NCBI GenBank assembly: GCA_934466475.1
Contig: CAKSLI010000006.1
Coordinates: forward strand, 1 to 64,000
Direction: 5' to 3'
DNA from: an uncultured Oscillospiraceae bacterium
Lineage (GTDB): Bacteria; Bacillota; Clostridia; Oscillospirales; Ruminococcaceae
Length of the DNA: 64,000 nt
A model generated the notes under the pieces. That model saw only the letters and a program-made list of their open reading frames with translations, was not told where the DNA came from and did no database searches. Positions 1-43,058 of this stretch are shown here, one piece after another (position 1 is the first letter of the stretch; each line of letters begins with the position of its first letter). The translations under genes were made by a program, and so were the position numbers.

Positions 1-29
1 AATTACCAGTAGAAATTGAAAAAATAATA

Positions 30-156
30 GGTCACCTCTAAAAACCTTGTTTGAGTGAAAATGTGTATAGCACACCGACTGCTACTTTCGCTTGTTGACA
101 GACGAAGATGGTGCGCACTGCTCATTTTCGCTCAAATGAGGTTTTTAGAGGTGACC
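30..156. mobile_element. miniature inverted-repeat element, copy 1
   Basis: A 127-bp element is bounded by GGTCACCTCTAAAAACC and its inverse GGTTTTTAGAGGTGACC. Its left half (gtgtgctatacac / gtgaaaat type) and right half (gcgcactgctcattttcgct type) are the same modules seen in the copies at 5369, 15859, 17699 and 21649. The right end abuts the ATG of an IS1182-type transposase fragment at 157. The 4 bp outside the ends (AATA and ATGT) do not match, unlike the free-standing copies, as expected if the right flank is now IS sequence. Confidence 0.85.
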
Positions 157-651
157 ATGTATGAAAAAGAAAGCAAGAACGAGAAATATCGCAATGATCC
201 ATACAGAGCGGTAAATTTCCCTGTCAATGAACGTGGTTTGCCAGTCTGCCCGAACGGAAAGGAATTCCATTTCATTTACAGCCGGCCTGTAAGGGGCAAT
301 AAATACGGCAGAACCGAGGAATATTTTCAGTGCGAGGATTGCAGCGGCTGTCCGCACAAGGAAAAATGCTGCAAGTGCAAGGGAAACCGGATCGTCCGTC
401 TGAACGAGGAGCTGACGCAGTTTCACGCAGAGGTTCTGAATAATCTGAACAGCATTCACGGCGCACTGCTCCGCATGAACAGAAGCATTCAGTCCGAGGG
501 TACTTTTGGCACGATCAAGTGGAACAGGTCGTATATCCGGGCGCGCCGCCGTGGGCTAAAGTCGCTTTTTCTTGAGTTCGGCATGATTTCCTGCGGTTTT
601 AATCTTCATAAGTTCCATCTGAAAAGAATGGCTTTCAGGTCTGCTGCCTGA
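157..651 (+). pseudogene. IS1182-type transposase, C-terminal fragment, copy 1
   Basis: The frame encodes 164 aa matching the C-terminal third of IS1182-family DDE transposases. It holds a Cys-rich zinc-knuckle-like stretch (YFQCEDCSGCPHKEKC) and the SEGTFG segment that carries the family's last catalytic Glu, followed by KWNRSYIRARRRG. The N-terminal domain and the two catalytic Asp residues are absent, so it cannot be a working transposase alone. The ATG at 157 directly follows the miniature element, whose end (AGAGGTGACC) forms a plausible Shine-Dalgarno. The frame stays open upstream to 55 but that part is element sequence. A near-identical fragment with the same 5' junction lies at 17204-17698 on the other strand. 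Confidence 0.8.
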
Positions 652-807
652 TTCAATATTTATTACATTTTGTGCATGGCATTTTCCTGCCAGTTTTTTT
701 TTGTCATACGCTTTTTTCGGTTCATTCTTCTTTTTTGCAGCATCAGCAAGCCCGAGCTTCCATAGGATGGTTGCTCGGGCTTGTGTGTTGAGTTATTTTA
801 CAGTCCC
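652..807 (+). mobile_element. right end of the IS1182-type remnant
   Basis: Noncoding tail of the IS remnant. It contains a hairpin of the type AGCCCGAGC ... GCTCGGGCT and ends with TTATTTTACAGTCCC. The inverse, GGGACTGTAAAATAA, is the outer end of the second remnant at 17051. Similarity between the two remnants stops here, only 5 bp before the stop codon of the metG-like gene, so the insertion sits right behind that gene. Confidence 0.7.
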
Positions 808-5362: not shown

Positions 5363-5368
5363 TCTGAT

Positions 5369-5527
5369 GGGAACCTCTAAAAACCGGTTTGAAAAGGGAA
5401 AATGGGTAGAGTGCGCCGAATGCGATGAAAGCCGACGAAGTAAGGCTGTATGCCTTACGAGGAGGTTTTCTGAAGCAGGCGGTGTGCTATACACATTTTC
5501 ACTCAAACAAGGTTTTTAGAGGTGACC
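5369..5527. mobile_element. miniature inverted-repeat element, copy 2
   Basis: A 159-bp element with ends GGGAACCTCTAAAAACC and GGTTTTTAGAGGTGACC, flanked on both sides by TGAT (5365-5368 and 5528-5531), a perfect 4-bp target duplication. The interior carries the GTAAGGC-tgtat-GCCTTAC hairpin with the following GAGGAGG. The left arm is the ccggtttgaaaagggaaaatggg type and the right arm the gtgtgctatacac type. Confidence 0.88.
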
Positions 5528-5539
5528 TGATATAAATAT

Positions 5540-5715
5540 GCGCCGCGCAGGATCTGCGCGGCGCTTCAGCTTGTCGAAAAAAATCAAATTTGCCCGCGAA
5601 GCGGGCTTTTGAAATCCGTTTTTTGTCTCAGCTTTGCCGGGTCAAAAAATACTTCTATCCGCGCAAGTGTGCGGATTGGCGGCTATGCCGCCAATCTGTG
5701 CGCGCGGCGCATTTT
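5540..5715. terminator. hairpin-rich convergent intergenic region with terminators
   Basis: About 180 bp between two convergent transcription units. It contains GCGCCGCGCA/TGCGCGGCGC (5541-5565), GCCCGC-gaa-GCGGGC followed by TTTT on the plus strand (5592-5610), and GATTGGCGGC-tat-GCCGCCAATC near 5675. T-runs lie beyond the hairpins on both strands, so bidirectional termination is likely. No coding sequence is seen. Confidence 0.5.
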
Positions 5716-15858: not shown

Positions 15859-16087
15859 GGGAACCTCTAAAAACCGGTGTGAAAAGCAAAAATGGGCAGG
15901 GTGTGCCAGCTTCTAGGAAAGCCGACGAAGTAAGGCTGTATGCCTTACGAGGAGGTGCAACACGATGTTGCAGAGCGAAATAACCGGGCGACGGCATGGA
16001 CGCCGTCGCCCGGTTATTTCGCTTGTTGACAGACGAAGATGGTGCGCACTGCTCATTTTCGCTCACATGAGGTTTTTAGAGGTGATC
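15859..16087. mobile_element. miniature inverted-repeat element, copy 3
   Basis: A 229-bp element from GGGAACCTCTAAAAACC to GGTTTTTAGAGGTGATC, flanked by TTAT on both sides (15855-15858 and 16088-16091). The interior has three hairpins in series: GTAAGGC/GCCTTAC, GCAACA-cga-TGTTGC, and a stem of about 18 bp, AAATAACCGGGCGACGGC paired with its inverse. The right arm is the same gcgcactgctcattttcgct type as copies 1 and 4. Confidence 0.9.
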
Positions 16088-17050: not shown

Positions 17051-17203
17051 GGGACTGTAAAATAACTCAACACCCAAACCCGAGCAACCATCCTATGGAA
17101 GCTCGGGCTTGCTGATGCTGCAAAAAAGAAGAATGAACCGAAAGAAGTGTATAACAAACAAGCCGGCGGGGAATGCCATGCACGAAATGTAATAAATATT
17201 GAA
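17051..17203 (-). mobile_element. right end of the second IS1182-type remnant
   Basis: Starts with GGGACTGTAAAATAACTCAA (plus strand) and contains the CCCGAGC ... GCTCGGG hairpin. It matches 652-807 in inverse orientation, with a short divergent stretch near 17145-17185. Confidence 0.7.
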
Positions 17204-17698
17204 TCAGGCAGCAGACCTGAGAGCCACTTTTTTTAGATGGAACTTATGAAGATTAAAACCGCAGGAAATCATGCCGAACTCAAGAAAAAGCGACTTTATC
17301 CCCCGGCGCCGCGCCCGGATATACGACCTGTTCCACTTGATCGTACCAAAAGTTCCCTCGGACTGAATACTTCTGTTCATACGGAGCAGCGCGCCGTGAA
17401 TGCTGTTCAGATTATTCAGGACCTCTGCGTGAAACTGCGTCAGCTCCTCGTTCAGACGGACGATCCGGTTTCCCTTGCACTTGCAGCATTTTTCCTTGTG
17501 CGGACAGCCGCTGCAATCCTCGCACTGAAAATATTCCTCGGTTCTGCCGTATTTATTGCCCCTTACAGGCCGGCTGTAAATGAAATGGAATTCCTTTCCG
17601 TTCGGGCAGACTGGCAAACCACGTTCATTGACAGGGAAATTTACCGCTCTGTATGGATCATTGCGATATTTCTCGTTCTTGCTTTCTTTTTTATACAT
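17204..17698 (-). pseudogene. IS1182-type transposase, C-terminal fragment, copy 2
   Basis: A 164-aa fragment nearly identical to the one at 157-651, differing at only a few residues (for example MYKKES for MYEKES and RRGIKS for RRGLKS). It has the same Cys-rich stretch and SEGTFG segment and the same missing N-terminal catalytic half. Its ATG at 17698 again directly abuts the GGTGACC end of a miniature element. An identical junction at two separate sites means the joined unit was copied, or both arose from one hybrid parent. Confidence 0.8.
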
Positions 17699-17926
17699 GG
17701 TCACCTCTAAAAACCTCATGTGAGCGAAAATGAGCAGTGCGCACCATCTTCGTCGTCAAGCCTCCTCGTAAGGCTGTATGCCTTACGAGGAGGTGCAACA
17801 CGATGTTGCAAAGCGAAATAACCGGGCGACGGCATGGACGCCGTCGCATCAGAAATTTCGCTCGTTGACAGAAGCAGGCGGTGTGCTATACACATTTTTA
17901 CTCAAATAAGGTTTTTAGAGGTGACC
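17699..17926. mobile_element. miniature inverted-repeat element, copy 4
   Basis: A 228-bp element with perfect ends GGTCACCTCTAAAAACC and GGTTTTTAGAGGTGACC. The interior carries the GTAAGGC/GCCTTAC, GCAACA/TGTTGC and GCGACGGC/GCCGTCGC hairpins as in copy 3, but the order of the arms differs. The outside 4-mers (ACAT, TATA) do not match, as in copy 1, because one side is IS sequence. The other end lies next to the terminator of the small RNA at 17931. Confidence 0.87.
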
Positions 17927-17930
17927 TATA

Positions 17931-18062
17931 GAAGCATCAAACCCCTGTGATTTCTCACAGGGGTTTGATGCTGGTTTGGTTGGTAATTATATGAAAATGA
18001 ACGGTGTCAAAATTCAGCAGAAAGCATTGTCTCACTTTCTGTAACATAGTATAGACGATTCC
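17931..18062 (-). ncRNA. small RNA family member 1 (predicted)
   Basis: On the minus strand TATAAT (18074-18069) precedes a region of about 130 nt with a 5' hairpin (ACAGAAAG / CTTTCTG). An unpaired linker follows that begins TTTTCATATAATTACCAACC and continues AAACCAGCATCA, and then a terminator stem AACCCCTGTG / CACAGGGGTT. The 32-nt linker is identical in the second copy at 42923-43058, while the stem bases change in a compensatory way (TGTG/CACA versus CGCG/CGCG). The T-run after the stem is weak (CTTCTA), possibly altered by the nearby insertion. It lies 3' of the ABC operon on the same strand and could also be a 3' UTR. Confidence 0.55.
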
Positions 18063-21301: not shown

Positions 21302-21385
21302 GGGGCGGCGCAAAAAAAAAATGAAACTTCGCATGCCGGACGCGAACAGAATCCGGATAATTGCCTTTGTGCATTGTTTTATTAT

Positions 21386-21558
21386 GGCAATACCGCACAA
21401 AGATTGTGCGTGTATTGCGCAGTCAGATTTTTCGTCAGATTGTACAATGAGGACAACGCAAGGCTGTCGCCTTGCTAGGACGAATTGTGCAAGATGACGG
21501 AAAAGATGCAAGCAAGACACGTGCAAAATCCAATAAATGGTCTTTGTGCGGTGTTGCC
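21386..21558. mobile_element. second type of long inverted-repeat element
   Basis: A 173-bp region with ends GGCAATACCGCACAAAGA and, inverted, GGCAACACCGCACAAAGA (one mismatch in 18). Inside lie further matched arms (TTTTTCGTCA against the inverse of TGACGGAAAAG; ATTGTACAAT against AATTGTGCAA) and a central GCAAGGC-tgtc-GCCTTGC hairpin, so the whole region folds into one long imperfect stem. The flanks (TTAT, TTAG) are not a clean duplication. It is not related in sequence to the TCTAAAAACC family. Confidence 0.6.
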
Positions 21559-21648
21559 TTAGGTAATTTACATTTAAATCGTGCGGCTTATGGGCGTTTT
21601 TTCGGCTATTCGTTACATTGACATCAGATTCATATTGTAGTATAATAA

Positions 21649-21843
21649 GTTCACCTCTAAAAACCTCGTTTGAGTGAAAATGTGTATAGCACACCGACTG
21701 CTACTTTCAACGAGCGAAATTTCTGATGCGACGGCGTCCATGCCGTCGCCCGGTTATTTCGCTCTGCAACATCGTGTTGCACCTCCTCGCATTCGGCGCA
21801 CTCTACCCATTTTCCCTTTGCAAATCGGTTTTTAGATGTTCCC
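21649..21843. mobile_element. miniature inverted-repeat element, copy 5
   Basis: A 195-bp element with ends GTTCACCTCTAAAAACC and GGTTTTTAGATGTTCCC, flanked by ATAA on both sides (21645-21648 and 21844-21847). The interior holds the long GCGACGGC-centred stem and the GCAACA/TGTTGC hairpin in inverse orientation to copy 3. It ends 58 bp upstream of the ATG of the solute-binding lipoprotein gene and so sits in that gene's promoter or leader region. Confidence 0.88.
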
Positions 21844-42922: not shown

Positions 42923-43058
42923 AAAAACATCAAACCCCCGCGATTTTACCCGCGGGGGTCTGATGCTGGTTTGGTTGGTAATTATATGAAAAGGTGCGGT
43001 TAACATTTTAACGTAAAGCTCCGGTCTGTGTCCCGATTTGCTGTTCCCTTTGCTTTAC
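42923..43058 (-). ncRNA. small RNA family member 2 (predicted)
   Basis: Minus strand: TATAAT (43070-43065), then a transcript of about 136 nt. It begins with a 5' stem GTAAAGC / GCTTTAC, has the same linker as member 1 (TTTTCATATAATTACCAACC then AAACCAGCATCA) and ends with GACCCCCGCG / CGCGGGGGTT plus TTTTTATC, a good terminator. It lies between the metK promoter and the pyk promoter and encodes no protein. The 32-nt linker is identical to that of member 1 and the terminator stem covaries. Confidence 0.62.

Follow-up and report, generated by a model that had tools for sequence, protein, structure and literature searches.

The stretch of DNA analysed here (the window; 64,000 nucleotides, positions 1 to 64,000 of contig CAKSLI010000006.1 from an uncultured Oscillospiraceae bacterium) contains six copies of a short repeat with inverted ends, which raises the questions of whether this repeat is a transposon and which enzyme could move it. 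Our analysis indicates that the six copies very probably form a family of non-autonomous DNA transposons (miniature inverted-repeat transposable elements, MITEs) with the ends of an IS5-family subgroup.

Copies of the element in the window

A search for GGTCACCTCTAAAAACC with up to 3 mismatches returned 13 matches in the window, against 0.08 expected from shuffles, and 12 of these were the ends of six copies that have 17-bp inverted ends in common, which is where the original prediction had placed its six copies. The four perfect and mutually different duplications that it listed (TGAT, TTAT, ATAA, and ATAT) were likewise present, at four of the six copies; the flanks of copies 30..156 (AATA/ATGT) and 17699..17926 (ACAT/TATA) were unequal. 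The longest stop-free stretch in any window copy was 72 codons, with no transposase coding, in agreement with the claim that no copy encodes a protein. The copies were as follows.

30..156, unstranded: putative MITE copy, 127 bp; arms E1/E2; without matching flanks; within a broken IS1182 transposase gene, replacing about 1.0 kb
5369..5527, minus strand: putative MITE copy, 159 bp; arms E3/E1; TGAT duplicated at the target (5365–5368 and 5528–5531)
15859..16087, unstranded: putative MITE copy, 229 bp; arms E3-like/E2; extra palindromes mid-element; duplication TTAT/TTAT
17699..17926, unstranded: putative MITE copy, 228 bp; arms E2/E1; without matching flanks; next to the C-terminal part of another IS1182 copy, related to the first
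21649..21843, plus strand: putative MITE copy, 195 bp; arms E1/E3; extra palindromes; duplication ATAA/ATAA
59494..59655, unstranded: putative MITE copy of a second subfamily, 162 bp; arms R1/R2; ends as in the other copies; duplication ATAT/ATAT

Other repeats were also observed in the window. About 180 bases at 21382–21561 had matches (92% in G161) in dozens of genomes from the family of G018, a MITE-bearing relative, often with two matches per genome; this repeat includes a possible 49-codon frame (21472–21621) ending in ...GRFFGYSLH, and no Rfam family matched it at the gathering threshold. Directly after copy 5369, another repeat (5566–5710) was up to 89% identical to many places in the genus and matched no Rfam family over the cut-off. 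A 55-base direct repeat occupied 17951–18005 and 42946–43000 (85% identical), one of the two lying some 25 bp past a MITE.

Two copies in IS1182 remnants

Copies 30..156 and 17699..17926 each adjoined a C-terminal piece of an IS1182-family transposase. The remnants were the following.

1..29, plus strand: start remnant of an IS1182 transposase gene; agrees with L227:288-316 at 26 of 29 bases (18 of 29 when reversed as a control)
157..807, plus strand: C-terminal piece of an IS1182-family transposase and the right end of the element (...TTATTTTACAGTCCC); PF13751 over cut-off; NF033551 fragment, below the full-length cut-off
17051..17698, minus strand: second copy of the IS1182 piece; 623 identities, 25 mismatches, and 3 gap positions relative to 157..807; PF13751; NF033551 fragment below cut-off

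An uninterrupted relative was found at L227 in G431, the sole genome of 43 with a match to the IS1182 piece, and comparison with it revealed that copy 30..156 occupies the place of about 1.0 kb of the IS1182 gene. The second IS1182 copy lacked its front part wholly, and its outer borders were exact, with the MITE end on one side and the IS1182 end on the other. This arrangement suggests that the MITE entered an IS1182 element, that adjacent internal DNA was lost, that the composite was copied, and that one copy then lost its front at the MITE end. As read from the sequences, the two MITE copies did not insert independently but lie in two degraded IS1182 copies that are related to each other, and the window thus lacks six independent insertions. 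The claim of six transposed copies holds for the four with duplications and fails for 30..156 and 17699..17926, which were not inserted separately.

Target duplications and empty sites

Genome contigs were scanned with an exact 18-mer, which gave at least 120 matches; the resulting pair statistics describe a sample rather than a census, and the bin labels may be wrong. In a first set, equal 4-bp flanks were found in 61 of 87 pairs among the matches listed. A larger set comprised ends with up to 4 mismatches lying 41–419 bp apart, from which repeated flanks were removed, as were pairs within 30 bp of a source end (dropping window copy 30..156). Among the matches listed, 66 of its 93 distinct pairs had equal 4-bp flanks, whereas 1000 shuffles of the right flank gave 5.8 on average and never more than 14. 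Flank identity was observed for 43 pairs at a length of 1, 10 at 2, 3 at 3, and 66 at 4, followed by 0 at 5, 0 at 6, 2 at 7, 0 at 8, and 1 at 9, a pattern that shows a fixed duplication length of 4 bp. The duplicated bases in this set were AT-rich, most commonly TTAT, ATAA, TTAA, TATA, and TTTA. The excess of equal 4-mers in relatives bears out the claim of true transposition into an AT-rich 4-bp target.

A comparison of occupied and empty sites in related genomes, proposed together with that claim, also yielded examples, all for copies of relatives (L272, L273, and L274, at 90–95%). For 10 copies in two close genomes, G007 and G025, the flanks were joined and used to search six genomes. L272, a 187-bp copy, lay between TAAA repeats, and a single TAAA without the element was present in G429 (93%) and G002 (90%). 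For L273, whose 182-bp copy has TTAT on each side, G429 was continuous at 95%, with the target bases there partly different, and a further spanning match occurred in G002 at 77%; for L274, a 51-bp copy, G429 was continuous at 93%. L268 and L265 had spanning matches of 71–75% only, with gaps, and L263, L266, L271, L262, and L261 had no spanning match from another genome in this six-genome search, L271 having two one-sided matches that ended 3 bases short of the junction. Earlier joined-flank searches among the collected loci, with 70 and then 129 queries, gave no spanning match.

With regard to window copy 5369, the 3' end of the preceding gene was located in 16 of 20 relatives' loci examined, and none of the 16 had a MITE end (up to 4 mismatches) within about 300 bp after that gene (155 bp in one). 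This is evidence of absence near the gene end only, the intergenic DNA of the relatives being too divergent for an exact empty site.

Hairpin structure and small copies

Three window copies folded as one long hairpin, with z values of −14.5, −8.6, and −12.8. Using reference arms chosen by the analyst, we assigned 28 copies to E1/E3 (19 of them 159 bp long), 4 to E2/E3, 2 to E1/E2 (both in the window), 7 to R1/R2 (including window copy 59494), and 28 to S1/S2 (mostly 157 bp); one arm was unclassified in 7 pairs and both arms in 25. Extra palindromes were nested in the loop of long copies and, on visual inspection, in their arms as well. Two of them, L072 and L054, had palindromic cassettes in the arms as well as the loop, and one L072 cassette resembled, by eye, a repeat standing after a gene in L219.

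Covariation between the arms was analysed in an alignment of 23 copies (22 of them distinct), each about 159 bp long. Paired cells made up 97.2%, compared with 93.0% in shuffles, and two-sided changes were found at 12 of 44 pairs (38 cells vs 9.3 in shuffles). One-sided changes keeping a pair accounted for 4 cells, which means few G-U steps, and 27 cells were unpaired; further pair types showed no excess over shuffles (17 vs 16.7). These counts give a lead, and only a lead as shared descent inflates them, that the arms of the hairpin may change together.

Seven places with two ends 51–54 bp apart were fetched among the matches listed in the 43-genome genus. Three of these micro copies had perfect duplications (AATA, AAAA, and TATT at L241, L242, and L245) and four did not, including L274 (the same locus as L240), the copy absent from the 93% identical site described above. 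The 51–54-bp copies may move as such or may have been cut down in place after insertion. Two 38-bp inverted pairs (L247 and L248) had no duplication and represented one locus in two genomes; they were rejected as mobile copies.

The arms tended to change together and were combined in different ways in different copies, and palindromic cassettes were added in the loop and arms without breaking the hairpin. On this basis, the near-perfect palindrome could be kept by correction, for example by template switching within the hairpin. The 51–54-bp copies, which consist of hardly more than their two ends and vary in presence between relatives, would then rank among the smallest mobile elements. We consider this proposal unlikely; the 27 unpaired cells, which show that one-sided changes do occur, count against it.

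The same structural features could point to a different explanation, namely that the hairpin is retained because it acts in RNA or DNA (as a terminator or processing site) and that mobility belongs only to its past history. The strong folding, the paired arm changes in 22 distinct copies, and the position of one window copy, which starts 6 bp past a stop codon, are consistent with such a function. However, we observed no positional conservation, all 16 relatives lacked an end near the matching gene end, empty sites exist, and G-U steps are few (4 one-sided cells) while 27 cells are unpaired, which together leave a retained function quite unlikely. Spread by recombination or slippage rather than transposition might be suggested by the 27 of 93 distinct pairs without duplications (larger set, among the matches listed) and by arms combined differently from copy to copy, but it is contradicted for most copies by the duplications, which number many at 4 bp and none at 5 bp, and by the empty sites, and is extremely improbable. 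We favor a MITE family that inserts by transposition.

Candidate partner transposases

The original prediction held that an enzyme acting in trans must recognise the ends and suggested looking for a full-length transposon with like ends. Such elements, with IS5-family transposase genes between similar ends, were found in relatives and on plasmids. G018, in which the 12-mer core of the end occurs 26 times without mismatch, contained a 1228-bp stretch (L145:1030-2257) between GGTCATCTCTAAAAACC and GGCAACCTTTAAAAACC that encloses an IS5-family transposase (profiles NF033581, PF05598, and PF01609 over cut-offs); its frame was interrupted, and the stretch had no duplication. The G071 element (L166:517-1757) had both ends and was flanked by TATA on either side, with a frame open over 357 codons. 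An Aliarcobacter faecis plasmid (L172:1107-2385) carried an IS5-family transposase with both ends and ATAT on both sides, and a Pseudosulfitobacter plasmid (L175) carried an IS5 relative with similar ends and a TTAC duplication. Lactococcus IS1194 (L173) had the ends without a duplication, and the plasmid IS5 relatives L174 and L176 had no such ends. In this plasmid sample (5 examined, from 25 listed among 235 plasmid relatives), 3 agreed and 2 lacked the ends. The MITE ends thus match those of elements with an IS5-family transposase, and the duplications of these autonomous elements, where present, have the same length of 4 bp. An IS5 subgroup (NCBIfam IS5_4) has such ends together with a 4-bp duplication.

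The transposase was matched in 9 of 29 end-bearing genomes. An end with up to 3 mismatches lay beside the transposase gene in G018, G009, G004, and G029 (the other end in G004 having 5 mismatches), and the remaining matches had no end or a doubtful one. Among 247 genomes of the G018 family, 6 had a match at 1e-30; five of these loci had an end with up to 3 mismatches, and the sixth had one with 5 mismatches only, which is within reach of chance. In the 43-genome genus, 7 genomes had a match at E 1e-8. The close matches (G018, 89%; G017, 80%; G009, 67%) included no intact full-length frame, and the others were distant (27–41% identity), some with open frames of 291–364 codons; five loci with distant matches were checked and had no ends at up to 3 mismatches. 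The relatives are draft genomes, in which repeats easily drop out. Searches of phage and plasmid DNA with one MITE copy each gave no match, and no viral contig was confirmed in a search with the IS5 protein. Of four viral contigs with the 17-mer, three had no partner end and one had a 708-bp pair without a duplication.

BLASTn comparison of the six copies with six IS elements aligned the terminal 10–19 bp, with only scattered 10–11-bp words inside, and no internal MITE sequence derived from an autonomous element was found in this comparison. Because only the terminal 10–19 bp are common to the MITE and the IS elements, we do not claim descent by internal deletion; the MITE would be better described as using IS5 ends than as a deleted IS5.

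A second candidate came from frames next to unpaired ends, of which 12 were translated and 5 scanned with Pfam; the scan yielded one IS4-like transposase (below the Pfam cut-off), one ParA/NUBPL ATPase, and three frames with no Pfam match over the cut-off. The IS4-like transposase, unrelated to the IS5 type, stands next to the 17-mer in Synergistales contigs and might serve the ends instead: in L023 and L123, the right end of its element runs into GGTTTTTAGAGGTGACC, and 1071 proteins are related to the transposase. However, the left side in L023 had no 17-mer at up to 3 mismatches, and L023 also contains an IS5-type fragment at 89–379 (recognised by eye). Furthermore, the IS4-like transposase was not found in 28 of the 29 end-bearing genomes (three further loci lay outside the check), the one weak match spanning 29 residues, and it was found in 0 of 119 genomes of the G018 family, in no plasmids, and in no confirmed viral contigs. 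We rejected it as the main partner, and that it serves the ends at all is very unlikely. Judging from ends and duplications, an IS5-type transposase is the likely trans partner of the MITE.

Copy number and host range

GGNNACCTCTAAAAACC, with up to 2 mismatches, had a match in all 43 genomes of the genus, many at the level of the reversed control. More than 30 ends were present in 7 of the 43, the largest number being 48, or about 24 copies, and G001 had 77 exact 12-mer cores in 1.6 Mb against 1 in the control. Relatives therefore show tens of copies rather than the hundreds per genome that had been estimated.

The hairpin repeat family is spread through a genus whose contigs carry the label Oscillospiraceae or Clostridia. 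These ends were also present, together with 4-bp duplications, under the labels Epsilonproteobacteria, Arcobacteraceae, and Synergistales. Provided that the binning is correct, distant bacteria seem to have separate MITE families that rely on one IS5-type end. At L075:3630-3658, in a contig labelled Helicobacteraceae, two inward-facing ends were almost joined, GGTCACCTCTAAAAACC being followed by TTAGAGGTGACC.

Proposed mechanism and comparison with known systems

We propose that an intact element in the cell would provide an IS5-type DDE transposase (IS5_4 group, with IS1194 as the nearest named element met), which would bind the 17-bp ends and mobilise the hairpin element, assuming that this enzyme acts on the MITE. 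Movement may occur by excision or by copying, and joining to a 4-bp AT-rich target (TTAT, ATAA, TTAA, and TATA types) would duplicate the 4 bp. The two window copies without duplications are carried in IS1182 remnants.

Our literature searches found no paper with the 17-mer, nothing on miniature inverted-repeat transposable elements in Oscillospiraceae, and nothing on IS1194 insertion sequence terminal inverted repeats; searches for MITE/IS5 or miniature inverted-repeat in Ruminococcus returned only papers that were off-topic by title and abstract. This is a new family of a known kind of element, the IS5-type MITE; new here is its documentation, which covers the probable enzyme, sites that lack the insertion, and copies of very small size. 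These results suggest which enzyme probably moves the hairpin repeat family, which targets it prefers, and over what range of sizes it occurs, and the paired arm evolution and the 51–54-bp copies offer testable cases of palindrome upkeep and minimum mobile-element size.

IS5_4 (NCBIfam NF033581)/IS1194-like elements resemble the MITE in their ends of the GGNNACCTCTAAAAACC type and 4-bp AT-rich duplications and occur in the MITE's genomes or family; they carry a transposase, whereas the MITE has none and shares the ends only. A precedent for sharing only ends with IS5-family elements exists in Porphyromonas gingivalis, where, according to excerpts of PMC4596501, the likeness of BrickBuilt and other MITEs to IS5-family elements is confined to terminal repeats and filled and empty sites are reported, as here. 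In the same excerpts, those MITEs have ends of type GAGACC... and duplications of varied length, in contrast to the fixed 4 bp found here, and BrickBuilt contains a minisatellite; in the window copies, a tandem array was looked for and not found. The Neisseria ATR element, with ISNme1 ends, is likewise described there as a MITE linked by its ends to an IS5-family element, although it differs from the window MITE in ends and host. QMITE2 and Chunjie, as presented in excerpts of PMC10969869, are MITE families from hosts other than that of the window MITE and show, like it, marked variation in copy size.
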